From Pelagihabitans pacificus (GTDB taxonomy: Bacteria > Bacteroidota > Bacteroidia > Flavobacteriales > Flavobacteriaceae): a stretch of DNA of 64,000 nucleotides. The stretch lies in the NCBI RefSeq assembly GCF_009371985.2, contig NZ_VIKU02000001.1, positions 1,178,001 to 1,242,000 on the forward strand. Direction: 5' to 3'. Shown here piece after piece: positions 12,495 through 31,315 of the stretch. Both the position numbers and the translations under genes were made by a program. Positions within the stretch are counted from its first letter, which is position 1. Every line of letters begins with the position of its first letter. Below the pieces are notes generated by a model. It did not search any database, was not told where the DNA came from, and saw nothing but the letters and a program-made list of their open reading frames with translations.

Positions 12495-12818
12495 ATGTTG
12501 GGAGAATAGCTTTTATGATACCGTAAAGGTAAGAGATGTGCTTATAGAAAACTATTTTAGGGTATATTCAAATCGAATTAACAAGAAATGGGCCTCGTTG
12601 GATAAATACATCGTGAATATGTCGCCACCTATTTTAATCGGGTAGATATCGAGACTATCTATGACACACTTTTGTTAATTTAATTTTATGACTATTAGCG
12701 TTTTATGACCTTTAAATACGCTAGAATATCCCAATATTTTGCTATCTTGTTATCACCTTGGCAAGACAACTCTGCCCGCTTTTTGGCAAAGTTTTCAATG
12801 GATTAAAAATGGTAGGTT
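12495..12818. other. Intergenic region between divergent dehydratase and RraA-like genes
   Basis: 324 bases without a convincing gene. It is AT-rich in the middle (around 12650-12730). A TAnnTTG-like element (TATCTTG, 12743-12749) could serve the plus-strand gene. A 9-base dyad CTTGGCAAG at about 12758-12766 is followed by a partial TTGGCAAAG copy near 12784, possibly an operator. I see no terminator or RNA gene. Confidence 0.35.
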
Positions 12819-13766
12819 ATGAAGTATTTATGTGGTATTTTGATTTTTTTTGTCGGTGGCCTTTTTTTTCATCTTCACTCCCAACAAATCAGTAAGGAAG
12901 AACTGATTTTTTTGACCCCGGAATGGAAAGGGGAGCGTTTCGAGGATGGAAGGCCCAAAGTGCCTGACGCCTTGTTGAAACGAATGAAACTGGTCACTTT
13001 GGAAGAAGCCTGGGCCGTACTGAAAGGAGCCAATTTCAAACACCAATATGCCGAAGGATGGCAAACGATCAATCCTGATAGTGTACTGGTCGGAAGGGCG
13101 GTGACCGCCACCTTTGTCCCGGGCCGCCCGGATATACATCGGGCCATTGACGACCGTGGCCATAATAAAGATGGCCGTATCAAATCCCAGAATGCCTGGA
13201 CAATCGACTTATTGGTAAAAGCCGATGTGTATGTGGTGGACCAATTTAGCGCACACATCGATGGTCCTACCATTGGGGATAACCTCGGAAATTCAATCTT
13301 TGCAAAAACAGGGAACGGCATTGTTTATGACGGGGCCATTCGAGATATCGATGGCCTTAAGGAAATTGGTGGTTTTACGTCGTTTTTCCGTACATACCAT
13401 CCGTCGCATCACTTGAACAACCCGGATGGGGAACTCAATACCACACTGATCGGCATCAATACCCCTACCCGTATCGGAATGGCTACGGTTATGCCCGGCG
13501 ACGTAGTTTTGGGAAGGGATGGAGGAGTCATTTTTATTCCGCCCCATTTGGCCGAAAAAGTGGTGAAAACGTCTGAAATCGTTCGATTAAGGGATATGTT
13601 CGGACATCAGCGTCTTCGAGAACAAAAATATACCCCCGGACAAATCGACAGCCGATGGAGCGATGAAATTGAAAAGGATTTCTCGAAATGGCTCAACGAC
13701 CATATCGACGAACTTCCCGTACCCAAGGAACAGATTCAGGAACTATTGAAAACACGTACTTGGTAG
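12819..13766 (+). CDS. Exported RraA/HMG-aldolase-like protein, copy 1
   Basis: 315 residues with a Sec signal peptide (about residues 1-22), unusual for this normally cytoplasmic fold. After a family-specific entry module (EWKGERFEDGRPKV) comes the RraA/4-hydroxy-4-methyl-2-oxoglutarate aldolase fold with the GDNLGNSIFAKTGNG loop and DGAIRD motif. Arg175 and Asp176 match the substrate-binding Arg and metal-binding Asp of HMG/CHA aldolases, so the site looks active. Such enzymes cleave keto acids to release pyruvate. It is clearly paralogous to the protein encoded at 16855-17793. It converges with the dehydratase-like gene at 13796 across 29 bases. Confidence 0.85.
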   Translation: MKYLCGILIFFVGGLFFHLHSQQISKEELIFLTPEWKGERFEDGRPKVPDALLKRMKLVTLEEAWAVLKGANFKHQYAEGWQTINPDSVLVGRAVTATFVPGRPDIHRAIDDRGHNKDGRIKSQNAWTIDLLVKADVYVVDQFSAHIDGPTIGDNLGNSIFAKTGNGIVYDGAIRDIDGLKEIGGFTSFFRTYHPSHHLNNPDGELNTTLIGINTPTRIGMATVMPGDVVLGRDGGVIFIPPHLAEKVVKTSEIVRLRDMFGHQRLREQKYTPGQIDSRWSDEIEKDFSKWLNDHIDELPVPKEQIQELLKTRTW

Positions 13767-13795
13767 AGGGGTCCGGTGGGCAATAAATACCGGCC

Positions 13796-15073
13796 CTATT
13801 CAAAGAAAGGGACTCCCTCGACCGCGTACTTGCGCATTCCTTCCTCATTGATCTCCACCCCAATCCCCGGTTTTTCGGACAGCGGTATAAATCCATTCTC
13901 GACCATAGCACCATCAAATGTTACAATTTCCTTGAACATGGGGTTTTTGTGAAAATATATTTGCCATTCCAATACCATAAAATTGGGTATCGACGCACAT
14001 ACATGACAAGAGGCCATGGCACCAAGATAGGATGCGACCATGTGTGGTGAAAAGGGCACATAATATAGGTTGGCCAAATTTGCGATGCGTTGGGCTTCCC
14101 CCAGCCCTCCGGCCTTTTGAAGGTCGGGCATGACGATATCGACCGCCCCGGCTTCCAACAGTGGCCGGAATCCGTAAGCTAGATAGTGGTTCTCCCCGGC
14201 ACAGATGGGTGTACTGGTCGATTCGGTAATTTTTTTGTAGGCTTCCACATTTTCCGCAGGGATGGGCTCTTCCAACCACATCAAATTGAGCGGCTCCAAC
14301 ACTTTGGCCACCCGTTCCCCGGAGGTCGTGTCGTAGCGACCGTGCATATCGGCACAAATATCGATATTCGGACCGACCGCTTCCCTGGCCGCTGCCATTT
14401 GATCGTACATACGCTGGATTTCGGCCGGGCTCGCCGTCCAATTGTATTGGTCATATTTATTGGGGTCATTGCCTTGGTCCAAATCGAACTTTACCGCCGT
14501 AAAGCCCATATCGACAGCCTCTTTCGCCGATTTGGCGAAATCCTCTGGACTGGGAAGTTTGTTCTGGTAAAGGGCAGTGTCCATATAGACACGAATACGA
14601 TCACGAAACTTGCCGCCGAGTAATTGGTACACGGGCAGGCCCAACGCCTTTCCGGCTAAATCCCACAAAGCCGATTCGACCGCGGTCAATACCGATACAT
14701 ACATCCCCGCCTGTGCTCCCTCAAAAAATCCGCGTCTTCTCAGGTCTTCAAACAAACGATGAACGTTCAAGGGATTTTTTCCTTTGAGCCGGTCTCCAAA
14801 AATCTTGACCAGGTGATAGGTGCCAGGAGTGGCATCGACCCCCTCACCGTGGCCCACGATGTCCTGATTGGAATAAATTTTGACAAAGAGACTGTGTCCT
14901 CCACGGATGTAACCACATTTGATATCGGTTATTTTCAAATCGGAAGGTGCTGATTTCTTGGAAGTACTATCAATGGCACGTTCGTACTCCATTCCGTAAT
15001 TTGTAAAAGGCATTCCGGTCAGGGCAGCGGTCGCCGCCACTTTCCCCAAAAAGCTTCTTCTTGAATTTTTCAT
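13796..15073 (-). CDS. Tat-exported enolase-superfamily (mandelate racemase subgroup) dehydratase, copy 1
   Basis: 425 residues. A twin-arginine signal (NSRRSFLGK, residues 4-11) directs folded export. The capping and TIM-barrel domains follow, with ligands for Mg at Asp242, Glu268 (WLEEP) and Glu294 (AGENH), the D-x-H-G motif DMHGR (Asp242/His244) also found in D-galactonate dehydratase, Lys195 and the C-terminal base candidate His344 (SPHMV). All key positions are filled, so an active acid-sugar dehydratase is likely; the substrate is not predictable. It is the last gene of the minus-strand run, 41 bases after the BASS gene. Confidence 0.88.
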   Translation of the reverse strand: MKNSRRSFLGKVAATAALTGMPFTNYGMEYERAIDSTSKKSAPSDLKITDIKCGYIRGGHSLFVKIYSNQDIVGHGEGVDATPGTYHLVKIFGDRLKGKNPLNVHRLFEDLRRRGFFEGAQAGMYVSVLTAVESALWDLAGKALGLPVYQLLGGKFRDRIRVYMDTALYQNKLPSPEDFAKSAKEAVDMGFTAVKFDLDQGNDPNKYDQYNWTASPAEIQRMYDQMAAAREAVGPNIDICADMHGRYDTTSGERVAKVLEPLNLMWLEEPIPAENVEAYKKITESTSTPICAGENHYLAYGFRPLLEAGAVDIVMPDLQKAGGLGEAQRIANLANLYYVPFSPHMVASYLGAMASCHVCASIPNFMVLEWQIYFHKNPMFKEIVTFDGAMVENGFIPLSEKPGIGVEINEEGMRKYAVEGVPFFE

Positions 15074-15114
15074 GGTTTTTCAAATTTATCGATGGTTCAA
15101 CTTAAACGAGTCCC

Positions 15115-16224
15115 CTATCTTTTTTCAGGGACCGCCCCTACCGCTTCGTCCGTTGGTTTTCCGCTCCAATAGGACGCCAATATGGAACCGGTGATATTCA
15201 TCAAAGGCCCGAACACGGCCGGGGCCAGCCCCATAGTCGCAATTTTTCCTAAAGAATCGGCTATACCCGAAGCGAGTCCTCCGTTTTGCATGCCGACCTC
15301 TATGGCAATCGTACGCGCATCCTGCTCGGACATCCGGAAGAGACGGGCGTACCAATACCCAAGGGTATAGCCAAAAAGATTATGGATCAATACCAGTAGC
15401 ATCAGAATACCTCCTATGTCTAACAGGCTATCCCTGCCCGCAGCGGTAATCACCGTAATAATCAAGCCAATGGCCAGCATGGAGACCAGCGGCATTGCCC
15501 TATCGAGCCATTGGGCTCCATCGCCCCTCAACTTATTGAACAAAAGTCCTGCGCCAATGGGTAGGATAATCATTTTGACGATACTCCACATCATCGCCAG
15601 AATATCAATTTCAATAAACTCCCCGGCCAGTAACTTCATCAACACCGGAGTAATAAAGGGTGCCAAAAGTGTAGCAATTGAAGTAATGGTGATGGAGAGC
15701 GCCACATTCGCCTTGGCCAGATAGGCCATGACATTGGAGGCCACTCCGCTGGGCGAACATCCGATCAGCACGATACCAGCCGCGATTTCCGGAGGAAAGC
15801 TACTGGTCTTGGCCAAGGTAAAACCCACCAGTGGCATGATCAACAACTGGGCCGAAACCCCGATCAAGACACCTTTCGGAGTTTTAAAAACCGCTGCGAA
15901 ATCCCCGACGCTCATGCTGGTTCCCATGCCGAACATGATAATCTGTATCAGGGGAATAATAAGACCCGTCAACTTAAATCCCGCTATTTCGGTAAAGAGT
16001 TCCGGATAATAGAGTGCCACGGAAACCCCCGCAAAAATCATGGTAGTAAATACGAGTCCGTTGTAGGCCCTATATCCGCTGAATCCAAAAGCTAGGGTTG
16101 CAAAGAAGCCCAGGAAAAACGGACCTGCCTGATGAATTTTTCCGGTAACGATCAAGACCACAATCCATAGGAACAGAAGGGCTGCAATCCCAAGCGAAAA
16201 TGCGTAAACCGTTGTTTTTTTCAA
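15115..16224 (-). CDS. BASS-family sodium-dependent organic anion symporter
   Basis: 369 residues with about ten transmembrane helices. The bile acid:sodium symporter signature is visible in MFGMGTSMSVGDF and in GIVLIGCSPSGVASNVMAYLAKAN, which holds the Na-binding broken helix. Bacterial and plastid members import bile acids, pyruvate, pantoate or other keto acids with sodium. Between exported dehydratase and aldolase-like genes, uptake of a keto acid such as pyruvate is the simplest hypothesis. The N-terminal ~85 residues hold extra hydrophobic segments before the core. Confidence 0.9.
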   Translation of the reverse strand: MKKTTVYAFSLGIAALLFLWIVVLIVTGKIHQAGPFFLGFFATLAFGFSGYRAYNGLVFTTMIFAGVSVALYYPELFTEIAGFKLTGLIIPLIQIIMFGMGTSMSVGDFAAVFKTPKGVLIGVSAQLLIMPLVGFTLAKTSSFPPEIAAGIVLIGCSPSGVASNVMAYLAKANVALSITITSIATLLAPFITPVLMKLLAGEFIEIDILAMMWSIVKMIILPIGAGLLFNKLRGDGAQWLDRAMPLVSMLAIGLIITVITAAGRDSLLDIGGILMLLVLIHNLFGYTLGYWYARLFRMSEQDARTIAIEVGMQNGGLASGIADSLGKIATMGLAPAVFGPLMNITGSILASYWSGKPTDEAVGAVPEKR

Positions 16225-16281
16225 AATAGTTAGATGTTAAAAGTGTTTCCGGGGCCTATATGACGGGACGAAAACTCGACG

Positions 16282-16734
16282 CTACAGTTTGTAAGCCTGT
16301 CGTGCCAATAGTTTCCAGCCCTCTCCTGTTTTCTTAAAAATCATCATCACTCCTATCCGCACATTGGTAGCCTCCCCTGCGTCGGCACCATCGGCCTGCA
16401 AGATATGGCGCACCACACCCACATCGTCCAATACCGAATATTTAGGCTCTTCCGTATCGATGTGCAAAAACTCAAAAGGGCCTTTGATCACCGCTTCCAA
16501 AAACTGTGTATGGTTTTCTATGGTACCGCTAGAATGACCATAGCTCAATTCGGGTAATGTCAAGGTCTTGAGCACTGTCTCGTTCTTGTCGATCATGGCC
16601 TGGTAAAAAGTACCCACTGTTTCCTCCAAGGTATTTTCCCCAGGTTCTACCTTTTGCGCGCTGACCAGAACATTTGAAATCAGAAATAGGTAAGGAACAA
16701 TTTTCGGAATGACAGATTTATGGAATATCCCCAT
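16282..16734 (-). CDS. Exported NTF2-like (DUF4440/SnoaL-type) protein
   Basis: 150 residues from ATG 16734, which begins a Sec signal peptide (ending at LVSAQ); the frame is open upstream to 16851 but that part has no signal character. The mature part fits the cystatin-like NTF2 fold: an opening helix (VGTFYQAMIDKNETVLKTL), LSYGHSSG and a closing strand pair (GWKLLARQAYKL). Members act as small hydrolases, isomerases or ligand-binding proteins. It sits between the RraA-like and BASS genes, so it probably handles a pathway intermediate in the periplasm. Confidence 0.75.
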   Translation of the reverse strand: MGIFHKSVIPKIVPYLFLISNVLVSAQKVEPGENTLEETVGTFYQAMIDKNETVLKTLTLPELSYGHSSGTIENHTQFLEAVIKGPFEFLHIDTEEPKYSVLDDVGVVRHILQADGADAGEATNVRIGVMMIFKKTGEGWKLLARQAYKL

Positions 16735-16854
16735 GGCAAAATATTTAAAAGGATGGTACCATCGATAGGATGATATGTTGGTGGCTACAAGGCTAAAAAA
16801 AATAGGACAATAACCTCTTCGGTGGTGTTCTTTTAAGCGGAACAATCCCATATC

Positions 16855-17793
16855 TTATTCTTTATCGGTATTATTGAGATAGTCGTCCAATTCCTTTCGT
16901 GTCATCGGTAATTTGTTATCTGGATATTCTTTGATCCAATTCCGGAAATCTGCCTCTATCGCTGAGGTCCATTTCGTATCGATCTGGCCCGGGGCATACT
17001 TTTTTTCCCGAAGCCGTTGAAACCCGAACTGGTCCCTTAGCCCTACCACCTCGGAAGAAAGTACCAATTCACTGGCAAGATGGGCGGGGATAAAGATGGT
17101 TCCATGTCGATTGGCGAGTACCACATCTCCCGGAAGTATGGTCGCCCTCCCTATACGAATGGGAGTGTTGATCTCGCTCAGCATTTGCTCTGCTAAAAAA
17201 GAGGGGTCGTCCCCACGATACCATCCGTTGAATCCTTCGATTTCCAATAGTCCGGCTACATCGCGAACGCCGCCATCGAAAATGACCCCATTTTGCGAAT
17301 TCGCAAAAATGGCATTTCCCAGGTTGGAACCGATCAATGTGCCATCGATTATCCGTCCGTAGCCGTCGGCGACATACACATCGCCAGGAACCAGCATTTC
17401 AATCGGCCATGAGTTGCTTCCCCCAATGGTATCCCGATTTTCCTGGGCACCCTTGACTTTGATCAACTCTTTATAATCGGGACGCAACGGCATATATTGG
17501 GCGGTAACCACACGCCCGGTCATGACCCTGTCGGGATGAAGAATTTTCCAGTCACCCTCGTACTGATTGTGGTATCCTTTTCTTCGTAAGTATCCCCAGG
17601 CCTCCTCTATTTGGATATTCTTCATTCGTTTGAGTAGTGCATCGGATACCTTGGGTCTACCGTCGGGAAAACGTTCTCCCTTCCAGTCGGCGGTCAGTTC
17701 CATGATATATTCCGGCGTAGCCGCTACTCCTTGGGATTGGACCGAAGAGAAGGTTAAAAATGCAATGGTCAGAATGAATTGGATGCTTTTCAT
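16855..17793 (-). CDS. Exported RraA/HMG-aldolase-like protein, copy 2
   Basis: 312 residues, paralogous to the copy at 12819: it shares the entry module (DWKGERFPDGRPKV), the GSNLGNAIFANSQNG loop, the DGGVRD motif (Arg177/Asp178) and the C-terminal FGFQRLREKKYAPGQ block. A Sec signal peptide ends near residue 21. The two differ in the middle (residues 105-130 and 190-215), where copy 1 has a longer His-rich loop, so substrates may differ. It is likely to be a periplasmic metal-dependent aldolase acting on a keto acid; a noncatalytic RraA-type role is the alternative. Confidence 0.85.
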   Translation of the reverse strand: MKSIQFILTIAFLTFSSVQSQGVAATPEYIMELTADWKGERFPDGRPKVSDALLKRMKNIQIEEAWGYLRRKGYHNQYEGDWKILHPDRVMTGRVVTAQYMPLRPDYKELIKVKGAQENRDTIGGSNSWPIEMLVPGDVYVADGYGRIIDGTLIGSNLGNAIFANSQNGVIFDGGVRDVAGLLEIEGFNGWYRGDDPSFLAEQMLSEINTPIRIGRATILPGDVVLANRHGTIFIPAHLASELVLSSEVVGLRDQFGFQRLREKKYAPGQIDTKWTSAIEADFRNWIKEYPDNKLPMTRKELDDYLNNTDKE

Positions 17794-17976
17794 GTGATAT
17801 GGTTTGTTGTCGTTCTTGGTTTATTTGATATTTTTATAAGTTGTTATTTTGGCTTACACGTAAAAAAGGTAGTTTTTGAAATGATTAAGACACTTTTACA
17901 CGATCTCTTAAATTACTCAAAAAATCCGTATTGTTCCTTTTGGGCGCATTGGCAAGGTACTAAAAAGCTTGGGGCT

Positions 17977-18003
17977 GGGCGCCCTACTCAAGAATAGGGG
18001 CCC
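17977..18003 (-). terminator. GC-rich hairpin, possible terminator after the second enolase-superfamily gene
   Basis: A near-perfect stem (GGGCGCCCTA against TAGGGGCCC, one bulge) lies in the 299-base gap between the gene at 18093 and the RraA-like gene. On the minus strand it is followed about 10 bases later by a short T run (CTTTTTAG). It suggests that the two halves of the locus form separate or attenuated transcripts. Nothing else is seen in this gap. Confidence 0.4.
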
Positions 18004-18092
18004 AACAACCAAACTTCAACTAACTCAAACTCTACCTTCCAATAGGCTATTGCAACCTTGTTTTTTCTATGAACTTGTCACGGGTGCCCATG

Positions 18093-19592
18093 CTAACTAT
18101 AGGTTCGATCATGGGAACGCTGCTCGTTCCATTCCTTGGTCGGGGCAAAATAGCTTTTGTCCCTAGGATCGATATGCTTTTTCAATACCTCTTCATTGAG
18201 CTCGATACCGAGACCGGGTGCGGTCAACGGTACGGTAGCAAATCCGTTCTCTATCATTTTATAACCTCCTACGGTTTTTACCAAATCTTCCCACCAGGGA
18301 AGGTCGACCGAATGATGTTCTAAGGCCAAGAAGTTTTGGGTGGCCGCGGCACAGTGTACATTGGCCATGAAGGACACCGGGGTTCCCGCCTGATGCATTG
18401 CCATGGCGATACCAAATTCCTCGGCGTAATCGGCAATCCGTTTGGTCTCCAAGAGACCGCCCGAAGAAGCCAGATCGGGATGAATGATATCTACTGCCCT
18501 AGCATGGATCAAGGGTTTAAAGTCTTTTAACAGATAGATGTCCTCCCCCGTTGTGGTAGGCGTTTCAATCGAATCGGTTATAGTCTTCCACTGTTCGGTA
18601 TATTGCCATGGCACCATGTCTTCAAACCAGGCCAGACGGTATTTTTCCAGTGCCCTCGCCAAGCGGATGTTATTGTTTAAATCGAAATGTCCGTAGTGGT
18701 CGGTAGAAATCGGTATTTCGTAGCCGACCATATTGCGAACATTCTCTACGACTTCCTGAAGGTGTTCCAATCCCTTATCGGTCATCTGAATCTGCGTAAA
18801 CGGATGCATGGTATTGCCATAGGACATGAAATTACGTTGATCGCCCCATTGTGCCAGTGTTCCCTTTTCGTTTTCCCAGAACTTTCCATTGACGACGGTA
18901 TTTGGTTTTCCTTTAAGTTCACCGATCGAGACATCCATCTTCAACCAGGTATACCCTTGCTCTTTGACCCTAAAATTGATCAACCGCTGTTGTTCTTCCG
19001 GGGAGCTTGCTTCCGGCGTATCGGCGTAGAGCCGCACCTTGTCGCGGTACCGCCCACCCAACAATTGCCAGGCTGGCACCCCATACGCTTTACCGCAAAG
19101 GTCCCAAAGGGCCATTTCTACGGCACAGACCCCGCCCGCCTGACGTGCCGGACCACCAAACTGTCTGATGATTTTGAATATCTTCTCTACATTACAGGGG
19201 TTTCGACCCAAAATTCGGCTCTTGAGCATCAGGGCATAACGGGGGTCGGCACCATCCCGCACTTCGCCCAACCCATAGATGCCCTGGTTGGTATCGATCC
19301 GGATAATGGCGGTGCCACCCATCACCTTCGCCAAGGTATATCGCATATCGGTAATCTTGAGTTCGGAAGGGGCCGATGCACGGTTGACCTTTGAGGTGGT
19401 CTCGGCAACCGTATCCTCGAACGAATACCCCATAAAACTGGAAAGGGCAATACCACCCAGAGCGGTCTTTTTCAAAAAATTTCGACGGTCATCCCCCGTT
19501 TTTGGGTTTTCGATTTCGGCCTGCCGTGTCTTTGTATATTTTCGTTCGGCCTCTTTGTTTTGTGCAATCAGTTCCTGGAGTCTGTTTTTCAT
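18093..19592 (-). CDS. Tat-exported enolase-superfamily (mandelate racemase subgroup) enzyme, copy 2
   Basis: 499 residues, longer than most family members. A polar 35-residue stretch precedes the twin-arginine signal (RRNFLKK, Arg36-Arg37). The barrel has Mg ligands Asp298, Glu324 (WFED) and Glu350 (TTGED), Lys218 (WLKMD) and the C-terminal His400 (MAMHQAG). Where copy 1 has D-x-H-G this protein has DHYG, so a Tyr replaces the conserved His and His299/His302 flank it; the chemistry or substrate should differ. An inserted segment (about residues 225-275) enlarges the region after the lysine. It follows SusD on the same strand after 161 bases. Confidence 0.87.
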   Translation of the reverse strand: MKNRLQELIAQNKEAERKYTKTRQAEIENPKTGDDRRNFLKKTALGGIALSSFMGYSFEDTVAETTSKVNRASAPSELKITDMRYTLAKVMGGTAIIRIDTNQGIYGLGEVRDGADPRYALMLKSRILGRNPCNVEKIFKIIRQFGGPARQAGGVCAVEMALWDLCGKAYGVPAWQLLGGRYRDKVRLYADTPEASSPEEQQRLINFRVKEQGYTWLKMDVSIGELKGKPNTVVNGKFWENEKGTLAQWGDQRNFMSYGNTMHPFTQIQMTDKGLEHLQEVVENVRNMVGYEIPISTDHYGHFDLNNNIRLARALEKYRLAWFEDMVPWQYTEQWKTITDSIETPTTTGEDIYLLKDFKPLIHARAVDIIHPDLASSGGLLETKRIADYAEEFGIAMAMHQAGTPVSFMANVHCAAATQNFLALEHHSVDLPWWEDLVKTVGGYKMIENGFATVPLTAPGLGIELNEEVLKKHIDPRDKSYFAPTKEWNEQRSHDRTYS

Positions 19593-19638
19593 AGTTCGTA
19601 CGGTTCAAATGGTTTGTTTCTCGTTTTGAATGGGTAAC

Positions 19639-19662
19639 ATCCAATTTTCCATTCAATTGGAT
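19639..19662. repeat. Perfect inverted repeat between susD-like and enolase-superfamily genes
   Basis: ATCCAATT and AATTGGAT form an 8-bp stem with an 8-base spacer in the 161-base gap. There is no T run on the minus strand, so it is more likely an operator or a processing hairpin in the polycistronic mRNA than a terminator. Confidence 0.4.
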
Positions 19663-19753
19663 TAAGTTAACAATCTTTCCCCCAAATATCAATAGCTGAA
19701 AGGAAACATGCATCCGTTACATGGTTAACCGACACAGGTTTCGTTTTTAGCAG

Positions 19754-21286
19754 TTATTCATCCCACCAAACCTTTGTTTCAAGATTATCGGGCCCTTGGC
19801 GAGCGATGGCTTCCTGGGCATTTGCACCATTGACGGCGAGCTCGTCCAGCGGATAGGTCAATCGATTTATAAAATCCGTAGAAATATCCTGCCCGGGAAA
19901 TGGATTGGGTGTCAGGGCCGGAAATTCAGAACGTCTAAAATTGGCGAAAGCTTCCGGACCATTGAGGAAAGAAGCAACCCAATATTGGGTATTGATTTGC
20001 TCTAGGGCGTTGCCGGCATCAAACGGATTGGCCGCCAAATAGGCATCGATATCGGCATCCGCTATGGCGATGGTCGGATTGTACAATGCCATTTGCTCCA
20101 TATGCGCACGAACACCTTCGTTATAAAAGCTTGCCGGGTCTCCAGTAATCCAGCCCCTTTCGGCCGCTTCGGCCAAAAGCAATTGGGTTTGGGCGTGGGT
20201 TAATATGAAGAAGGGAGTAAATGTATTCGCGATACGATTACGGTCTGCCTGACTGAATTCGTAGAAACTTGTTAGGCCAAGATCATCAGCTACCCCGACT
20301 ATGGTACCATTATCAAAACCCAAGGGCATCCCGATTTGATCGGCCGGATCGGTGTTCTCAACCTCCGGTACTTGATCTGCACCAGATTCCGCCCCCGTGT
20401 AACGAACGGCAATAGCTCCGAGACGGGGATCGTTATTGTCCGCAAGAAAACTGACAAAGGGTGCCGCCAGATAAAAATTACTGGCTTCGGTAGAGTTCAA
20501 AAGACGCCCGAGGTCATTAACATAGTTGCCATCATGACGTACCACAAAATTGTCGTCATTCGATTCAAGAACTCCCCTGCTAAACGCTGCGGTCACCGTA
20601 GACTCTGCCAGCTGTAAATCTCGTTCGGTTAAACGCATTCCTAACCGCACCAGTAAAGAGTTTCCCAGTTTTTGCCATTTTGATATGTCGCCCCCATACA
20701 AGATTTCGCCGGGATACGTATCACCGTTCGGGTCTAGACCTGTGGTGGCATTAGTAACACGACTGATCAAATCGGGATAGATTTGGGCCTGGTCGTCATA
20801 GGCGGGAAGTACAATATTCTCGGCCCGGCCCAAACCTGCCTCGAAATAAGGAACATCGCCATAGGTATCAGTCAGCACCATAAAAGCATGTGCCTCGACA
20901 ATTTCTGTCATCCGAAGCAAATTGGCACGATCCGGATTATCCGCTAGTGAGCTTTTGATCAGTCCAGTCACCTGGATCAGGTCTTGATAGTGGTTGTTCC
21001 ATATCTGTAAGGTAACGTTACGGTTATCTTGATTGAAGTTGGCACCCGTCAAAACCCCGGAATTCGGACTAATGATCTGCTGGACAATACCCATTTCATA
21101 AACGAGTTGTGCCGTAGGCAAGGAGGTCTCAATAATGGCATTGTTCAATAAGAACACCTCATCAATCTCTGTGGGATCAACTGTATTGGTATTTAGTCTA
21201 TCCAGATCTTCTTCACAAGAAACTATAATAAACAAAATGCCGAATACGCCTAAAAGTCTTCTAATATTTTTCATGGTCATATTCAT
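19754..21286 (-). CDS. SusD/RagB-family outer membrane nutrient-binding lipoprotein
   Basis: 510 residues with a lipoprotein signal (FIIVSCEED, Cys about 24), so it is anchored in the outer membrane and forms the lid over the SusC barrel. The helical TPR-like scaffold, the LTHAQTQLLLAEAAERGW segment and the C-terminal NVRRSEFPAL-like region (here FANFRRSEFPAL) fit the SusD-like_2 group. Its start is separated by one base from the SusC stop, so translation is probably coupled. It is expected to bind the substrate that enters through SusC; SusD-like proteins of this group are not restricted to glycans. Confidence 0.93.
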   Translation of the reverse strand: MNMTMKNIRRLLGVFGILFIIVSCEEDLDRLNTNTVDPTEIDEVFLLNNAIIETSLPTAQLVYEMGIVQQIISPNSGVLTGANFNQDNRNVTLQIWNNHYQDLIQVTGLIKSSLADNPDRANLLRMTEIVEAHAFMVLTDTYGDVPYFEAGLGRAENIVLPAYDDQAQIYPDLISRVTNATTGLDPNGDTYPGEILYGGDISKWQKLGNSLLVRLGMRLTERDLQLAESTVTAAFSRGVLESNDDNFVVRHDGNYVNDLGRLLNSTEASNFYLAAPFVSFLADNNDPRLGAIAVRYTGAESGADQVPEVENTDPADQIGMPLGFDNGTIVGVADDLGLTSFYEFSQADRNRIANTFTPFFILTHAQTQLLLAEAAERGWITGDPASFYNEGVRAHMEQMALYNPTIAIADADIDAYLAANPFDAGNALEQINTQYWVASFLNGPEAFANFRRSEFPALTPNPFPGQDISTDFINRLTYPLDELAVNGANAQEAIARQGPDNLETKVWWDE

Positions 21287-21287
21287 T

Positions 21288-24200
21288 TTAAAGTTTCAAA
21301 TTCAAGTTAAAACCGATATCTCTGGTGGTCGGAACACCAGGGGCTTCCAAGCCGACAACATTGTCAGAGGTGAAACCAAAAGATTCCGGATCAATGTTCG
21401 GCACCCATTTCTTGAGTATTGCCACATTGTTGGCCACCAAGCTCAAAGTTGCACCCTTCAACCACGAATTCTCAGGAATGAACCTTTGAAAATTATATCC
21501 TAAGGTAATTTGTCGCAACCTCCAAAAGCCGGAATCATAAACCACAGGTTCCACCAAACCAAAGTTCCGTATGGTTTCCCAATAAGCCTGACTATTAGCG
21601 GCAACGGTATTCGGCTCGCCTGCTTGGTTGACCCCTACACCGATTACCCCGTCTTCACGACCGGGCAATGTCATCCGATGCAGGCCGTGACGTACGGCAT
21701 TAAAGTTGGTTCCAGAAATCATTTGGCCACCCAACCGGAAATCAATCAAAAAAGAAAAATTAAAATCCTTGTAGTTGAAGGTATTGGTAATACCCCCGAC
21801 GTGTGTGGGCAATGCACTACCGAACAACACATCTTCTTCACTGGGTAGCGGTCGACCATCGTCGGCAAATATTTGCCTGCCCTGCTCATCAAACCGATAT
21901 CCCGTACCGACCAGTTGGCCCATTTCCTCTCCTACGACCTGGAACAAAAAACCGTTGAAAATATGTCGGCCGACCAAAATACGCTCTCCAGGCTCGTCGG
22001 TGAGTAAACTGATGACCTTTGTTTTATTATAAGCAAAGTTTGCCGTAACATCCCAATTGAAGTCATTCGTTTGAATAGGGTTGACGCTCAATAAGGCTTC
22101 AATACCTTGGTTACGACTTTCCCCACTATTGATCAAGGTACTTCTGAAACCCGATGAATTAGATATCTCTGCATTGATGATCTGGTCAAAGGTAGTTTTT
22201 TGATACGCGGCCAAATCTATACGCACCCGATTGTCGAAAAGCCGGAGGTCGAGACCCACCTCGATTTCCTGAACCCGCATCGGACGCAAGTCAGGGTTGG
22301 GCAGCACATCGGAGCTGGGCCTACCAACAGGACTAAGACCATTGGGCCCGGGAAATAAGTTAGGCTGAATCTCGAAAAACAACTGATCGGAAAAAGGCCT
22401 AACGTCGGTATCGCTACCCACCTCGGCATAAGCGGCCCTTATCTTACCAAAAGTTAGCCAGCTGGGTTTGAAGGTATTGGAGAAAATATAGCTTCCGGTA
22501 ATCGATGGATAAAAAATACTTCGATTTTCGGGAGAAAGCGTCGAGAACCAATCGTTTCTCCCAGTTACATTAAGATAGTAGGTATCTTGATAGGAAAACT
22601 CGGCCGCCCCGTAAACAGAATTGACACCCCGTGTAAAATCTTGATAGATGGGTTGGTTTACCCTTCCGTTTCGCACGGTGTACAAGTCGCGAATCACAAA
22701 ATCGGTCACATTGACCCGGTTCAGCTGATTGCGTTGTTCCATGAGGTTACCCCCCAAATTGACGTCGATACCAAAATCGCCGAACTCCTTGGTCGCGGTC
22801 AATAACACGTCAACATTGGTTTCCCGAAAACGACGCACCTCCTGGGTATACGTACCATTTACAAAGCCCTCGGGAGCCGGGGGCCGTGATACTTGACCTG
22901 TAGGATACCCATTGTACTCCTGATCGCGCGACCAAAAGTCTTGCCCGACCCTCGCCTGGGCCGAAAGCCATGGCAGGACCTTATAACTGAGGGCGACGTT
23001 CCCAAAAATACGGTCACGTTCAATATTGTTGAACTGTTTCTCCAAAATAAAATAAGGATTGGTACGGTTTCTAAAACGCGAATAGAAAATTTCGTCCCCA
23101 TTTTCGTCGAAGGCGTTATCCCGTAAAACATCCAAGGGCATTGAATTCGCCAAGGCAAAAAGGGTAGTAGGTATAGTGTTGTCTTGTTGCCCTATGTTAG
23201 GTGGATTCGTATTTTCTTCATTCGAATAGTTAACACTCGCCGTAACATTGACTTTGTCCGAAAGGTCATAGCTAAGGCCCAAGTTGACCGTACGCCTTTC
23301 AAATTCATTATTCGGGGTGATTCCTTCGCTCGAAAGATTGGATAGTGAAAGATTGAAACCTCCTTTTTCACCACCTCCTGAAATAGCGATGGAATTCGTA
23401 ATATTGACACCATCACGATAAAAATCACGAAGAATGTCGCGTTGCGGGACATAGGGAAGTTCGATGCCATCGTACAATACCTGTGTCAAGCCAGGCTCGA
23501 AACGCTCCCCGAAAGACCATTGTCCCGAAGCTGGATTGGGACTCGTAGGTCGCACCCCGAATTCCCCCTGGCCATATTCGTATTGGTAATCAGTAAAGTC
23601 AAGAGGCGTATTGTTTGTGACATTCAAATTGTAAGTAATTCCCAGACCTTGGCCCTCACCACGTGTTTTTGTAGTGATCATAATGACGCCGTCTTTTGCC
23701 CGGGAACCATAAAGTGCTGCTGCTGCCGCCCCTTTTAGTATGGTCATGCTTTCAATGTCATCAGGGTTAATGCTGGAGAAACCATCACCCCCATCTGAGG
23801 TGACCCCTCCACCACTGGTACCCGGTTCGCCCCCGGTACTCCTGGGATTAGTCCCGAAATTGCTGTTATCAATAGGCACCCCGTTTACGACTATCAAGGG
23901 CGTATTGGTGCCCCCTAGGGAAGATTGTCCCCTTAGACGTACCTTTGATGAGCCTCCCGGTCCTGATCCCAGATTTGAAACATTTACCCCTGCTACCTTT
24001 CCTGTTAAGGTATTCATGAAATTGGTGGTTCGGTTAACCGTCAATTCTTCCGATTCGACCTTTGAAACGGCATACCCCAACTTACGGGCATCCTTTTTGA
24101 TACCCAAGGCCGTAACTACGACCTCATCGAGATTCTCGGTCGTTTCCTCCAATGTTATGTCCAGTCTACTAGAGGCTCCTATTGTGACTTCTTTGGTCGC

Positions 24201-24791
24201 ATATCCCAGTGCACTGAAGACCAGTATGGCGTCTGAACTTGTTGGAACTATACGATAGTTGCCATCAAAATCGGTAGCAACTCCGTTCGAAGTGTTTTTC
24301 TCTACTACTGAAACTCCTGGGATAGGCATTCCTTCGGTATCGGTAACGGTACCACTAATTTCTTGTTGTATGGGCGCTTCCGAATTGTGAAGGAAGGTAG
24401 AACCTTCAAAATCATTCACGATGGTAGCCACAGGACGTATTTTTAAGACAATTTGCTTGCCTTTGAATACATAAGCCGTATTACTTCCTTCAAAAAGGAT
24501 TGATAACACTTCCAATACCGGTTTATTCTCGACGATTACCGATACTTTTCGTTCCGTGTCAATTTTGGTATTGTCATACAGGAATTTAAAGTCGGTCTGC
24601 TGCTCTATTTGGTCAAGAACCTGTTGGAGGCTTGCATCCTTTAGGTTCAAGGTTACCTTTGTCTTCTGGGAATAGGCGTATGCCCGCGTGGAAAACAAGG
24701 AAAGTACAAGAAAGCATATGGTCAGTTTCATGAGCACACCGAACTTTAACGGGCGAGGCACCAAGGCCTCGGCACTGATATAGTTTTTCAT
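21288..24791 (-). CDS. SusC/RagA-family TonB-linked outer membrane transporter with STN signalling domain
   Basis: 1167 residues. In order: signal peptide, STN domain (about residues 45-115, VTLNLKDASLQQVLDQI), carboxypeptidase-regulatory-like domain (about 145-220, GTVTDTEGMPIPGVSV), a plug with the RagA/SusC signature (GSGPGGSSKVRLRGQSS), and a large barrel ending DIGFNLNLKL. The STN domain is the part that contacts FecR anti-sigma factors, and a fecR gene lies just upstream, so the receptor probably controls its own expression on binding substrate. It is coupled to SusD. Confidence 0.95.
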   Translation of the reverse strand: MKNYISAEALVPRPLKFGVLMKLTICFLVLSLFSTRAYAYSQKTKVTLNLKDASLQQVLDQIEQQTDFKFLYDNTKIDTERKVSVIVENKPVLEVLSILFEGSNTAYVFKGKQIVLKIRPVATIVNDFEGSTFLHNSEAPIQQEISGTVTDTEGMPIPGVSVVEKNTSNGVATDFDGNYRIVPTSSDAILVFSALGYATKEVTIGASSRLDITLEETTENLDEVVVTALGIKKDARKLGYAVSKVESEELTVNRTTNFMNTLTGKVAGVNVSNLGSGPGGSSKVRLRGQSSLGGTNTPLIVVNGVPIDNSNFGTNPRSTGGEPGTSGGGVTSDGGDGFSSINPDDIESMTILKGAAAAALYGSRAKDGVIMITTKTRGEGQGLGITYNLNVTNNTPLDFTDYQYEYGQGEFGVRPTSPNPASGQWSFGERFEPGLTQVLYDGIELPYVPQRDILRDFYRDGVNITNSIAISGGGEKGGFNLSLSNLSSEGITPNNEFERRTVNLGLSYDLSDKVNVTASVNYSNEENTNPPNIGQQDNTIPTTLFALANSMPLDVLRDNAFDENGDEIFYSRFRNRTNPYFILEKQFNNIERDRIFGNVALSYKVLPWLSAQARVGQDFWSRDQEYNGYPTGQVSRPPAPEGFVNGTYTQEVRRFRETNVDVLLTATKEFGDFGIDVNLGGNLMEQRNQLNRVNVTDFVIRDLYTVRNGRVNQPIYQDFTRGVNSVYGAAEFSYQDTYYLNVTGRNDWFSTLSPENRSIFYPSITGSYIFSNTFKPSWLTFGKIRAAYAEVGSDTDVRPFSDQLFFEIQPNLFPGPNGLSPVGRPSSDVLPNPDLRPMRVQEIEVGLDLRLFDNRVRIDLAAYQKTTFDQIINAEISNSSGFRSTLINSGESRNQGIEALLSVNPIQTNDFNWDVTANFAYNKTKVISLLTDEPGERILVGRHIFNGFLFQVVGEEMGQLVGTGYRFDEQGRQIFADDGRPLPSEEDVLFGSALPTHVGGITNTFNYKDFNFSFLIDFRLGGQMISGTNFNAVRHGLHRMTLPGREDGVIGVGVNQAGEPNTVAANSQAYWETIRNFGLVEPVVYDSGFWRLRQITLGYNFQRFIPENSWLKGATLSLVANNVAILKKWVPNIDPESFGFTSDNVVGLEAPGVPTTRDIGFNLNLKL

Positions 24792-24838
24792 ATCTTCGTA
24801 GTTTTATTAATTAACTCGTGTTAGTTGATATCCTTAAT

Positions 24839-24871
24839 CGGGAAATGTGTCCGCATTTCTCGATTTTTTTT
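24839..24871 (+). other. Hairpin followed by a T run in the fecR-susC gap
   Basis: CGGGAAATG and CATTTCTCG form a 9-bp stem (one G-T pair) with a 6-base loop, followed on the plus strand by about eight T residues. As a terminator it would act on antisense transcription. In the minus-strand mRNA the same hairpin sits about 50 bases upstream of the susC start, where it could stabilise the transporter transcript or separate it from fecR. Confidence 0.45.
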
Positions 24872-24895
24872 ATGGATTGAAATTCTCAAAAGGTT

Positions 24896-26074
24896 CTAAT
24901 CATAGGCGTTCATTTTTAAGTGTTCCCGTGGTTTTTCGATAACAATTTTTTTATCTTCAAGACGGTACTCGAAATAGGTTTCCTCGGCGAAGGTGTCGAG
25001 TACCTCCGATATGGTTTCCTTGTCGAAAGTGGCCGAAAAAATACGGTGGCGCAACGCCTCGAATCGATTCTCGATCTTCACATTATATTTTCGTTGCAAT
25101 CGCCTCAAAATCGCCTCAAAACTAGTTTTCCTAAAAACCAGCTTTCCCTCACGCCAACTGGTGTAGTGTTCCACATCTACGTTCTTCGTTTTTAGCTCGT
25201 TGTTACTTTTGTTCCAGGTCGCTTTTTGTCCCGGAACCAAGCGGATAGGTGTTGCCAGTGCCTTCCCACCACCCCCGTAAAGGCTGATCGAACCTTCGAC
25301 CAACACGGTATTGACCTGAAAGTCGTCTTCATAGGCAGTAACATTGAACTCGGTTCCCATTACCTGTATGCTGACTTCTCCACTGGAAACCACAAAGGGC
25401 CTCTTCTTGTTCTTTGAGACCTTGAAATAAGCCTCTCCGGTCAACGCCACCTCGCGGACGGTCTCATGGCCTTGATTCACTGGATAGCGTATCGAAGAAC
25501 CGGAGTTAAGACGAATTTGAGTGCCATCGGGCAGCTGTATAGCAAACTGCTTCCCGTTTGGCACCCAAAGGCTATGATAAACCGATTCGTCATCGGTTTG
25601 ATAATGGCCGTAGTTCAATACATCATACCTTTTGATTCCCATCAATCTTTCATTTTGGTCAAAAATCGGCTCCTCGCCCCCTATCCTAATGGTTTGTGAA
25701 TAATCGTTCGATAGTTGCAGGGTTATCTCCGAGGTCGTCCGCTGTCGGTCACCTTCCGAGCGATTCTGTATCCATATTACCCAAAGTATTGAAGCCAATC
25801 CCGCAAACACCGCCGCGAAACGAAATGCCATTCTCTGGTATTGTATTTTTTTTTGTTTGCGGTTCTCCTGCTCCCTGAGCAGCTTCTGCCAAACAAGGGT
25901 CGGTTCACTCCGATCAAAATTCGGGATGACAATATTTCTTTTTTGAAGATCGAGAAGGCGGTGGTATAAACGCATGTTCTCCTCCGATTCCGAAAGCCAT
26001 AGATCTAGTTGTCGCTGCTCCTCGGGCCTGAGATCCTCTAGTAGTTTTTTTCTTATCAGTTGGTTTGGATGCAT
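24896..26074 (-). CDS. FecR-family anti-sigma factor
   Basis: 392 residues. A cytoplasmic N-terminal region with a sigma-binding helix bundle (residues 1-80) is followed by one transmembrane helix (about 85-105), a periplasmic FecR beta-domain (GKQFAIQLPDGTQIRLNSGSS; LTGEAYFKVSKNKKRPFVV; GTEFNVTAYEDD) and a C-terminal STN-like DUF4974 domain (about 315-380). It should hold the neighbouring ECF sigma factor inactive until the STN domain of the receptor signals occupancy. Its gene lies downstream of the sigma factor on the same strand. Confidence 0.93.
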   Translation of the reverse strand: MHPNQLIRKKLLEDLRPEEQRQLDLWLSESEENMRLYHRLLDLQKRNIVIPNFDRSEPTLVWQKLLREQENRKQKKIQYQRMAFRFAAVFAGLASILWVIWIQNRSEGDRQRTTSEITLQLSNDYSQTIRIGGEEPIFDQNERLMGIKRYDVLNYGHYQTDDESVYHSLWVPNGKQFAIQLPDGTQIRLNSGSSIRYPVNQGHETVREVALTGEAYFKVSKNKKRPFVVSSGEVSIQVMGTEFNVTAYEDDFQVNTVLVEGSISLYGGGGKALATPIRLVPGQKATWNKSNNELKTKNVDVEHYTSWREGKLVFRKTSFEAILRRLQRKYNVKIENRFEALRHRIFSATFDKETISEVLDTFAEETYFEYRLEDKKIVIEKPREHLKMNAYD

Positions 26075-26159
26075 GGTACGGTATACACTTTTATAGTCTA
26101 TACTACTAAGAGTACCTAGTTACCGAAAAGGGTAGTCCCAAGACAAAGGAAAAATAAAA

Positions 26160-26318
26160 TCATACTTCTTCACCCTTTGGAGAAGATAGACTTACCTCGG
26201 TACTGCCTATACGAATAATGTTATGGGAAAAGGGGTTGTTTCTACCGGAAATCACGTAGGAAGTTCCAAGAAAACCTATTACTATCCAAAGAAAGGTTTC
26301 CTGGCGTTCTACAAGCAT
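26160..26318 (-). CDS. Candidate 52-residue single-pass membrane peptide between sigma and anti-sigma genes
   Basis: A 53-codon frame (stop included) starts at an ATG that overlaps the last 10 bases of the sigma-factor gene in another frame, an arrangement typical of translational coupling. Its product has a hydrophobic segment (FLWIVIGFLGTSYVIS, residues 9-24) and a polar tail ending in KGEEV, which would lie on one side of the membrane. It fills most of the otherwise unexplained 234-base gap before fecR. I recognise no family. It could be a real small regulator of the sigma/anti-sigma pair or a chance frame. Confidence 0.35.
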   Translation of the reverse strand: MLVERQETFLWIVIGFLGTSYVISGRNNPFSHNIIRIGSTEVSLSSPKGEEV

Positions 26319-26830
26319 ACAAAGGGTAACAGCAGGAAGGTGAAATACGTATCCCTCAAAGAAAGCCTAAGGGACTTGAAAGACTTTTTCAGATGATATT
26401 TGACGGTATTGACCGATAATCCCAATGTCGTAGCGGCCATCTTATATCGAACGCCTTGGATAACGCACAGTTGAAAGATTCTTCTGGCTTTTTCAGGCAA
26501 TGCATTGATACTGTTGTTGATTATGGCCTTTCTTTCCGAATCAATCAGGCTAATTTCATAAGAAGGTACCACAGCCTCGTGATCGCTGTAAGCAATCTGC
26601 CTTCTTTGTTTTCGAATATGCTTGAGGCAGGCATTGCGAATGGAAACCTTTACATAACCTCTTAAATGGACAATATGGTTTCTCTTGGGCAGTATCATAC
26701 GCAGGAAAACCTCTTGAACCACATCTTCCGCCGCGGAACTTTCACCAAGATAACTAAAGGCCAACATGCACCATTCATGATAATGCTCTACAAAAAGCAC
26801 CTCAATTCTTTTAAGTTGATCGGCATCCAT
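26309..26830 (-). CDS. ECF RNA polymerase sigma factor (FecI-like)
   Basis: 173 residues with sigma region 2 (FVEHYHEWCMLAFSYLGESSAAEDVVQEVFLRM) and region 4 with a helix-turn-helix (KMAATTLGLSVNTVKYHLKKSFKSLR). It belongs to the FecI-like sigma-70 factors that Bacteroidota use with FecR and STN-type SusC to control one uptake locus. It heads the minus-strand cluster that runs to susCD, so it probably activates these genes. The C-terminus ends in a hydrophobic stretch (FTFLLLPFVCL), slightly unusual for a soluble sigma factor. Confidence 0.92.
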   Translation of the reverse strand: MDADQLKRIEVLFVEHYHEWCMLAFSYLGESSAAEDVVQEVFLRMILPKRNHIVHLRGYVKVSIRNACLKHIRKQRRQIAYSDHEAVVPSYEISLIDSERKAIINNSINALPEKARRIFQLCVIQGVRYKMAATTLGLSVNTVKYHLKKSFKSLRLSLRDTYFTFLLLPFVCL

Positions 26831-31150: not shown

Positions 31151-31168
31151 TTGTTCCGACTACTTTTT
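31142..31168 (+). terminator. Intrinsic terminator overlapping the stop codon of the 29-residue protein
   Basis: A perfect 10-bp stem AAAAAGTAGT / ACTACTTTTT with a 7-base loop. The stop codon TAG (31148-31150) is part of the left arm, so terminating ribosomes would cover the hairpin. Confidence 0.8.
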
Positions 31169-31315
31169 CATTTTAATACGTTCTTTGACATAGAGATTCA
31201 AAAAAGAATTTCGGCAGGTATAAAAGACCTGTTTCTATCATTGTTTAATCTATTTATCCCTAAAGGGAGTCGGTTTTATCGAAACCATTCCAGGGATAAC
31301 TATAAATACATTCAG

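Follow-up and report, generated by a model that had tools for sequence, protein, structure and literature searches.

Gene content and export signals of the locus

A stretch of 64,000 nucleotides from the marine-type bacterium Pelagihabitans pacificus (NCBI RefSeq assembly GCF_009371985.2, contig NZ_VIKU02000001.1, positions 1,178,001 to 1,242,000 of the forward strand; the whole stretch is here called the window) carries a locus of ten genes (Table 1). These encode two enolase-superfamily proteins (MRa and MRb), two RraA-like proteins (RraA1 and RraA2), a BASS-family carrier and a SnoaL-like protein, together with a SusC/SusD pair, a FecR-type anti-sigma factor and an extracytoplasmic function (ECF) sigma factor. 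An original prediction, made from the sequence alone, had named all ten; each was recovered in the same place, and a Pfam scan of the window proteins gave every one a match above gathering score in an agreeing family. ECF sigma, FecR, SusC, SusD, MRb, RraA2, SnoaL, BASS and MRa are all minus-strand genes. RraA1 is on the plus strand, convergent with MRa, and is therefore not co-transcribed with the other nine.

Table 1. Genes of the locus, with positions counted from the first nucleotide of the window
Product	Position	Strand	Family match
RraA1, leader-bearing RraA/HMG-CHA-aldolase-like protein, 315 aa, G153-D154-X20-R175-D176	12819..13766	+	PF03737
MRa, RR-motif (Tat-type) enolase-superfamily enzyme, galactonate-dehydratase-like residues	13796..15073	-	MR_MLE_C
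BASS-family sodium symporter, PanS-like; putative keto-acid importer	15115..16224	-	SBF
DUF4440/SnoaL-like (NTF2-type) protein with leader	16282..16734 (ORF to 16851)	-	DUF4440
RraA2, leader-bearing RraA-like protein, Ser for first Asp of D-X20-R-D	16855..17793	-	PF03737
MRb, RR-motif (Tat-type) enolase-superfamily enzyme, D-H-Y-G-H on third strand	18093..19592	-	MR_MLE_C
SusD-like outer-membrane lipoprotein	19754..21286	-	SusD-like_2
SusC/RagA TonB-linked transporter with N-terminal STN domain	21288..24791	-	TIGR04056, PF07660
FecR-type anti-sigma factor	24896..26074	-	PF04773 and PF16344, above gathering score
ECF sigma factor	26309..26830	-	Sigma70_r2 and Sigma70_r4_2, above gathering score

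MRa and MRb begin with the twin-arginine motifs RRSFLGK and RRNFLKK, respectively, each placed before a hydrophobic stretch, and TatC is present in the genome; both proteins are thus predicted to be exported as substrates of the twin-arginine translocation (Tat) pathway. RraA1 and RraA2 possess Sec-like leaders, as judged by eye. These signals, on which the original prediction had placed the enzymes outside the cytoplasm, are retained among relatives of the window genes, the surrounding stretches of which are labelled here with L-numbers. Among the MRa relatives in L033-L061 and L072-L151, with duplicates and rows cut at stretch ends left out, 34 of 35 have the RR motif ahead of a hydrophobic stretch, as do 51 of 66 MRb relatives (the other 15 MRb rows do not show it). 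A crude test found a hydrophobic N-terminal stretch in all RraA1 (33/33), RraA2 (62/62) and RraA3 (34/34) proteins of the same stretches. This test is non-specific, since it also flags UxuB (6/6) and some KdgA (2/8) and KdgK (1/11) proteins; the RR motif is the more telling signal.

The carrier matches the SBF family (PF01758) at 132.5 bits against a cut-off of 24.3 and scores 234.2 against the cut-off of 400 of the PanS pantoate transporter model (NF047939); its nearest solved chains are 8oyf and 3zuy. For the SnoaL-like protein (DUF4440, 40.5 bits), no solved relative was found at E 0.001. The longer reading of its ORF (16282-16851) masks its leader; by eye, the true start is probably a Met near 16734, ahead of the leader.

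The SusC/SusD and ECF setting was likewise borne out by Pfam and NCBIfam, which name both members of the pair and the FecR and sigma genes. SusD (SusD-like_2, 260.6 bits) has 5j5u as its nearest solved chain, and SusC shows CarbopepD_reg_2, Plug and STN domains and passes the NCBIfam model OMP_RagA_SusC (TIGR04056) with 652.3 bits. The locus shares with the polysaccharide utilization loci of Bacteroidota the SusC/SusD pair next to FecR and an ECF sigma factor, but Pfam named no glycan-cleaving enzyme, either within the locus itself or among the ten flanking genes that were scanned. On one side these flanking genes encode a pyridoxal phosphate-dependent enzyme, a metallo-beta-lactamase-like protein, an EamA carrier and a DUF2807 protein, and on the other GldD, a CNNM protein, SSB, a MutY-like protein and an RNase E/G-family protein; one small ORF has no Pfam match, and by Pfam the flanking genes share no common theme. 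The RNase E/G-family gene (31151-32863) lies about 4 kb past the sigma gene, and RraA is named after RNase E; a link between the two is unlikely here because the RraA proteins of the window bear leaders.

Active sites of the dehydratase-like and RraA-like proteins

MRa and MRb match MR_MLE_C at 210.7 and 164.7 bits, respectively, and score 257.9 and 184.3 with the D-galactonate dehydratase (DgoD) model NF010624, below its cut-off of 311. For both, the nearest solved protein by sequence is 2qq6, titled merely as an MR/MLE-like protein; the structure model of MRb has a predicted local distance difference test score (pLDDT) of 86.0. The roles given here to their residues (metal ligands, catalytic His and Asp, likeness to D-galactonate dehydratase) follow the usual assignment in the superfamily. 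All 36 MRa rows keep the ligands that were checked, the second-strand Lys and two His, one of them on the seventh strand and the other two positions past the first ligand; in all 63 MRb rows the ligands, the Lys and the seventh-strand His are kept. The features that mark the mandelate racemase subgroup (three carboxylate ligands, the His of strand 7 and the Asp of strand 6) were found in every row of both groups (36/36 and 63/63). The DgoD-type His two residues past the first metal ligand distinguishes them: it is present in 36 of 36 MRa rows and in none of the 63 MRb rows (Tyr in 37, Phe in 20, Trp in five and Leu in one). The third strand of MRb instead reads D-H-[YFWL]-G-H throughout (63/63), which is unusual, and we know of no enolase subgroup with this motif.

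RraA1 and RraA2 match PF03737 (58.5 and 63.2 bits; cut-off 24.5) and remain far from the cut-off of 304.5 of the LigK/PcmE equivalog TIGR02798 (43.5 and 45.5). G153-D154 and R175-D176 of RraA1 correspond in the alignment to G101-D102 and R123-D124 of 3NOJ, an HMG/CHA aldolase (4-hydroxy-4-methyl-2-oxoglutarate/4-carboxy-4-hydroxy-2-oxoadipate aldolase), so that RraA1 carries the complete D-X20-R-D metal and enolate site, whereas RraA2 retains the R-D and has Ser for the first Asp. A passage of the literature on this aldolase describes Arg-123 as stabilising the enolate and Asp-124 and Glu-199 as binding the metal, and says that most RraA/aldolase homologues retain one of the two motifs required for metal binding and catalysis (PMC5065237). 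Among 162 RraA rows, G153 (162/162), R175 (162/162), D176 (161/162), E253 (162/162) and D259 (161/162) are kept, while position 154 is Asp in 134, Ser in 21 (window RraA2 among them), Ala in five and Asn in two. RraA1 has the fold of the HMG/CHA aldolase and RraA family in common (model pLDDT 89.6; Foldseek TM over target 0.90 with 5x15 and 0.69 with 3noj) and differs from the aldolase in its signal peptide, its 315 aa and an identity of 19% in the Foldseek match, to which RraA2 adds its Ser for Asp. The catalytic residues described by the original prediction thus hold for MRa and RraA1, but MRb lacks the DgoD-type His and RraA2 the first Asp; the keto-acid chemistry that it proposed is supported, as far as sequence can suggest it.

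An RraA protein might also be a non-catalytic helper, for example a keto-acid binding protein that hands its load to BASS. E. coli RraA is described in PMC5065237 as binding to the RNA degradosome and modulating it; the long RraA proteins have residues on both sides of the Pfam match, and Asp154 is variable, all of which would suit such a role. The near invariance of Arg175, Asp176 and Glu253 (at least 161 of 162 rows) speaks otherwise and suggests metal-dependent catalysis, and we regard the helper role as improbable. A purely aromatic CHA/HMG pathway was rejected: no aromatic-pathway model reached its cut-off among the ten genes, and Pfam named none among the ten flanking genes.

Linkage and partner enzymes in other Bacteroidota

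Linkage was surveyed in three samples. The family set comprised 199 family genomes, 18 of which carry long RraA (above 200 bits), the window's own included (G184 merely as two pieces at contig ends). The named set was drawn from named GTDB contigs, in which at least 540 relatives occur, and consisted of the best 80 loci with 104 distinct long RraA genes; it overlaps with the family set in some genomes. The phylum sample comprised 395 genomes, 24 of which have an RraA profile match at E 1e-30; 31 stretches from 22 genomes with matches, other than G000 and G032, yielded 33 distinct long RraA genes. As a control, the nine best-scoring of 16 weak, short RraA match rows were used.

Long RraA has an MR, UxuA-like or DgaE enzyme no more than 6 kb away in 27 of 28 cases in the family set, 94 of 104 in the best 80 named loci and 28 of 33 in the phylum sample, and BASS lies within the same distance in 16/28, 67/104 and 16/33, respectively. 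Neither occurs within 6 kb of any of the nine short-RraA controls, near which KdgK (3/9), SusC or SusD (4/9) and a match to a gluconokinase query (1/9) were found. The phylum counts (28/33 and 16/33 against 0/9) indicate more than local chance, and chance clustering is ruled out by the comparison of long RraA with the controls. Some loci without a nearby enzyme or BASS sit on short contigs, and one further phylum RraA gene, outside the 33 since it is masked by a longer ORF (L202), adjoins an MRa gene. Had these genes been unlinked elsewhere, the original prediction would have failed by its own terms; a linked set was found in all three samples. The gene set occurs in many other Bacteroidota. 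In Algoriphagus, Cognataquiflexum and Arthrospiribacter it forms a single run of SusC-SusD-RraA1-MRa-RraA2-MRb-BASS (L084, L086, L094, L107 and L123), with an additional second MRa-like gene in L094. The MRb protein was detected in four of the ten genomes searched of the window's genus, and the congeneric stretch L230 has all ten genes in the order of the window.

Genes of sugar-acid catabolism accompany a number of these loci. The gene immediately downstream of BASS, and on its strand, is KdgK in eight distinct loci (L033, L034, L039, L080, L081, L090, L093 and L097), and L232 brings the total to nine. In L033, KdgA (378.5 against 275), UxuA (587 against 199.55) and UxuB (358.8 against 281) pass their NCBIfam cut-offs, while the kinase is below those of the aldolase/kinase fusion model (494.1 against 700) and of the 2-keto-3-deoxygluconate (KDG)/KDGal kinase model (217.8 against 440). 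L204 holds a same-strand run of ECF, FecR, SusC, SusD, two UxuA-like proteins, RraA3, MRb, BASS, MRb, a pyrroloquinoline quinone (PQQ) dehydrogenase, SMP-30, KdgK and KdgA; both UxuA-family proteins bear RR leaders, the PQQ dehydrogenase has a cytochrome c domain, and SMP-30 is a lactonase. In the window's genome, the PfkB kinase (KdgK) and KDPG aldolase (KdgA) are 90% and 81% identical to those of L039; they adjoin UxaC, at a distance of some 170 kb from the locus. A PQQ-dehydrogenase relative (40%) is also present. In the congeneric L231, MRb adjoins KdgK-KdgA, UxuA/B, FAH and an SMP-30 relative; the stretch lacks RraA2, BASS and any match to the window's SnoaL protein (a different DUF4440 protein is present), and the sole RraA2 match of that genome in the family search, 56% identical, is on another contig.

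Two alternative enzyme families, with oxidase and lactonase partners, go beyond what had been predicted. RR-leader UxuA-family proteins adjoin RraA at L204:10598-12864, L208:5080-6159, L080:4784-8277 and L142:7572-13017, and one protein each of L204 (228.2) and L208 (255.6) passes the mannonate dehydratase subfamily cut-off of 191. A third module comprises RraA, mostly BASS, an RR-leader DgaE-family ammonia lyase, RidA and an amidohydrolase, often with a GSDH-cytochrome c protein and a YjgF lipoprotein (L043-L049, L051, L052, L100, L135, L139, L141, L145, L146, L149, L150, L193, L195 and L209). For the lyase, which has the RR motif in 19 of 19 rows, DgaE is the best NCBIfam match (193.5 against a cut-off of 385.3). 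The module is possibly an extracytoplasmic amino-sugar-acid route. It resembles the D-glucosaminate pathway in its DgaE-family enzyme and differs from it in the RR leader, in the company of exported RidA, amidohydrolase, RraA and usually BASS, and in scores below the DgaE cut-offs.

Several side observations concern these partners. In L117 a major facilitator superfamily (MFS) protein (12801-14045) follows MRb, where BASS often sits; among NCBIfam models it scores best with that of the D-galactonate transporter subfamily (285.3 against 395). In L217, L220 and L221, KdgK has short RraA genes nearby, and L221 also carries a Chondroitinase-B-family protein and, next to the RraA, an RR-leader xylose-isomerase-like TIM barrel; the Chondroitinase-B family includes some alginate lyases. 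Ser for Asp in RraA was considered as a mark of KdgK operons (seven of 20 Ser rows against seven of 133 Asp rows, window rows excluded) and set aside as no evidence, as it may reflect one clade.

These partners bear on whether the substrate is a sugar acid at all. It could be a non-sugar carboxylic acid, such as an aromatic-pathway or hydroxy acid, the sugar-acid genes being drawn in from shared neighbourhoods. Enolase-superfamily function is hard to predict, and neither MRa nor MRb reaches any NCBIfam cut-off; pantoate is the cargo of PanS-like members of the BASS family; and MRb adjoins a proline-racemase-family protein on its other side in L231 and a FAD-dependent oxidoreductase in L232, either of which could belong to hydroxyproline use. 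UxuA-type and DgaE-type enzymes, PQQ dehydrogenase, SMP-30, KdgK, KdgA, a gluconokinase-like kinase and the galactonate-type MFS protein, however, all belong to sugar-acid metabolism by best match, several of them under cut-off, and a non-sugar substrate seems to us a distant prospect.

Proposed route for sugar-acid entry

Named members of the MR-, UxuA- and DgaE-type families make KDG or its phosphate. Given that three unrelated enzyme types have the same RraA and BASS partners, the simplest product for them to have in common is a 2-keto-3-deoxy sugar acid that arises outside the cytoplasm, and the simplest role of BASS would be import of that acid or of the product of RraA from it. From gene content, export motifs, active-site residues and conserved linkage, all observed directly, we infer the substrate, direction, cargo, regulation and RraA reaction of the locus as follows. 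On balance it is probably an extracytoplasmic entry route for sugar acids, in which dehydration takes place outside, the intact keto acid is imported and cleavage by KdgK/KdgA is cytoplasmic. SusCD, under FecR/ECF control, would let a sugar acid, or else a small precursor, through the outer membrane; Tat-exported MRa and MRb would dehydrate aldonate-type acids to 2-keto-3-deoxy acids of the KDG type; BASS would bring the keto acid in by sodium symport; and in the cytoplasm KDG kinase and KDPG aldolase would yield pyruvate and triose phosphate. RraA would use its metal/Arg pyruvate-enolate site on this keto acid too, likeliest in a reversible or partial aldol cleavage, the least certain step. 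Besides the conserved linkage, the L204 run, the KdgK genes next to BASS, the kinase and aldolase elsewhere in the window's genome, the galactonate-type MFS protein of L117 and the invariant ligands and two His of MRa speak for this route.

The form given in the original prediction was a periplasmic non-phosphorylative Entner-Doudoroff pathway, in which RraA1 and RraA2 are pyruvate aldolases that cleave the 2-keto-3-deoxy acid and BASS imports pyruvate. The kept aldolase site of RraA1, aligned with that of 3NOJ, and the five residues conserved in at least 161 of 162 rows favour periplasmic cleavage, and KDG, a 4-hydroxy-2-oxo acid, is of the right substrate class. BASS-RraA pairs without an MR, UxuA-type or DgaE-type enzyme (L144:8783-10924; L133:8905-10915, in a 14.8 kb stretch; and L116, on a short contig) point the same way and fit pyruvate import at least as well; one of the L144 and L133 pairs is from a Gemmatimonadota metagenome-assembled genome. 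Asp154, however, is replaced in 28 of the 162 rows, including that of window RraA2. KdgK directly by BASS in nine loci, and the MRb-KdgK-KdgA arrangement of L231 without RraA2 or BASS, favour importing the intact keto acid and cleaving it in the cytoplasm. Pyruvate import after periplasmic cleavage is held to be possible but the less likely form.

Import of the intact keto acid has its own difficulties. MRa, MRb, BASS, RraA1 and RraA2 are all under every NCBIfam cut-off. The L204 and L208 proteins that pass the subfamily model miss the uxuA equivalog cut-off of 199.55 (157.3 and 174.6), the second L204 UxuA-like protein is under both cut-offs, and no tested RR-leader UxuA passes the equivalog. 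KdgK does not adjoin the window locus and lies within 8 kb of RraA in only 4/28, 10/104 (best 80 loci) and 1/33 cases of the three samples, against 3/9 controls; the corresponding counts are 2/28, 7/104 and 3/33 for PQQ dehydrogenase and 9/28, 2/104 and 6/33 for SMP-30. L075 and L077 retain RraA2 with KdgK and show no MRb or BASS, and 17 of the 33 phylum-sample loci have no BASS gene within 6 kb. On the BASS tree the DgaE setting must have been gained or lost at least five times, each change being forced by starred branches, as expected with a common cargo, but the DgaE label is clustered in it (five changes against a shuffled mean of 14.3), and the tree is a quick one with 16 of 58 inner branches open.

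The route resembles the Entner-Doudoroff aldonate pathways (gluconate or galactonate dehydratase, KdgK and KdgA) in the predicted dehydration to a 2-keto-3-deoxy acid followed by kinase and aldolase, and KdgK and KdgA are present in some of the related operons; it differs in that the dehydratases bear export signals, the described pathways being, to our knowledge, all cytoplasmic. In Pseudomonas and Gluconobacter, PQQ-dependent oxidation of glucose to aldonate takes place in the periplasm. A PQQ dehydrogenase is likewise near some relatives of the locus, but here dehydration also appears to occur outside, with the product apparently imported by BASS. More tentatively, the head of the Entner-Doudoroff pathway may be run outside the cytoplasm in Bacteroidota more widely: exported MR-, UxuA- and DgaE-type enzymes, some fed by exported oxidases and lactonases, would converge on 2-keto-3-deoxy sugar acids, which an exported RraA aldolase and BASS would process and import. 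The exported dehydratase/RraA/BASS set was not found described in open-access literature, as judged from titles and the openings of abstracts, and this absence is weak evidence because it is limited to open-access papers. Each enzyme family is known; what appears new is the extracytoplasmic compartment, together with the way in which the families converge on RraA-BASS.

If the route is correct, part of sugar-acid catabolism would be relocated outside the cytoplasm in many Bacteroidota, and the unit imported would be a keto acid, through a sodium symporter, and not a sugar. It would also assign a role to those exported dehydratases, RraA and RidA proteins and BASS carriers that current family models leave unnamed, and would change the reading of SusCD loci without glycan-cleaving enzymes.

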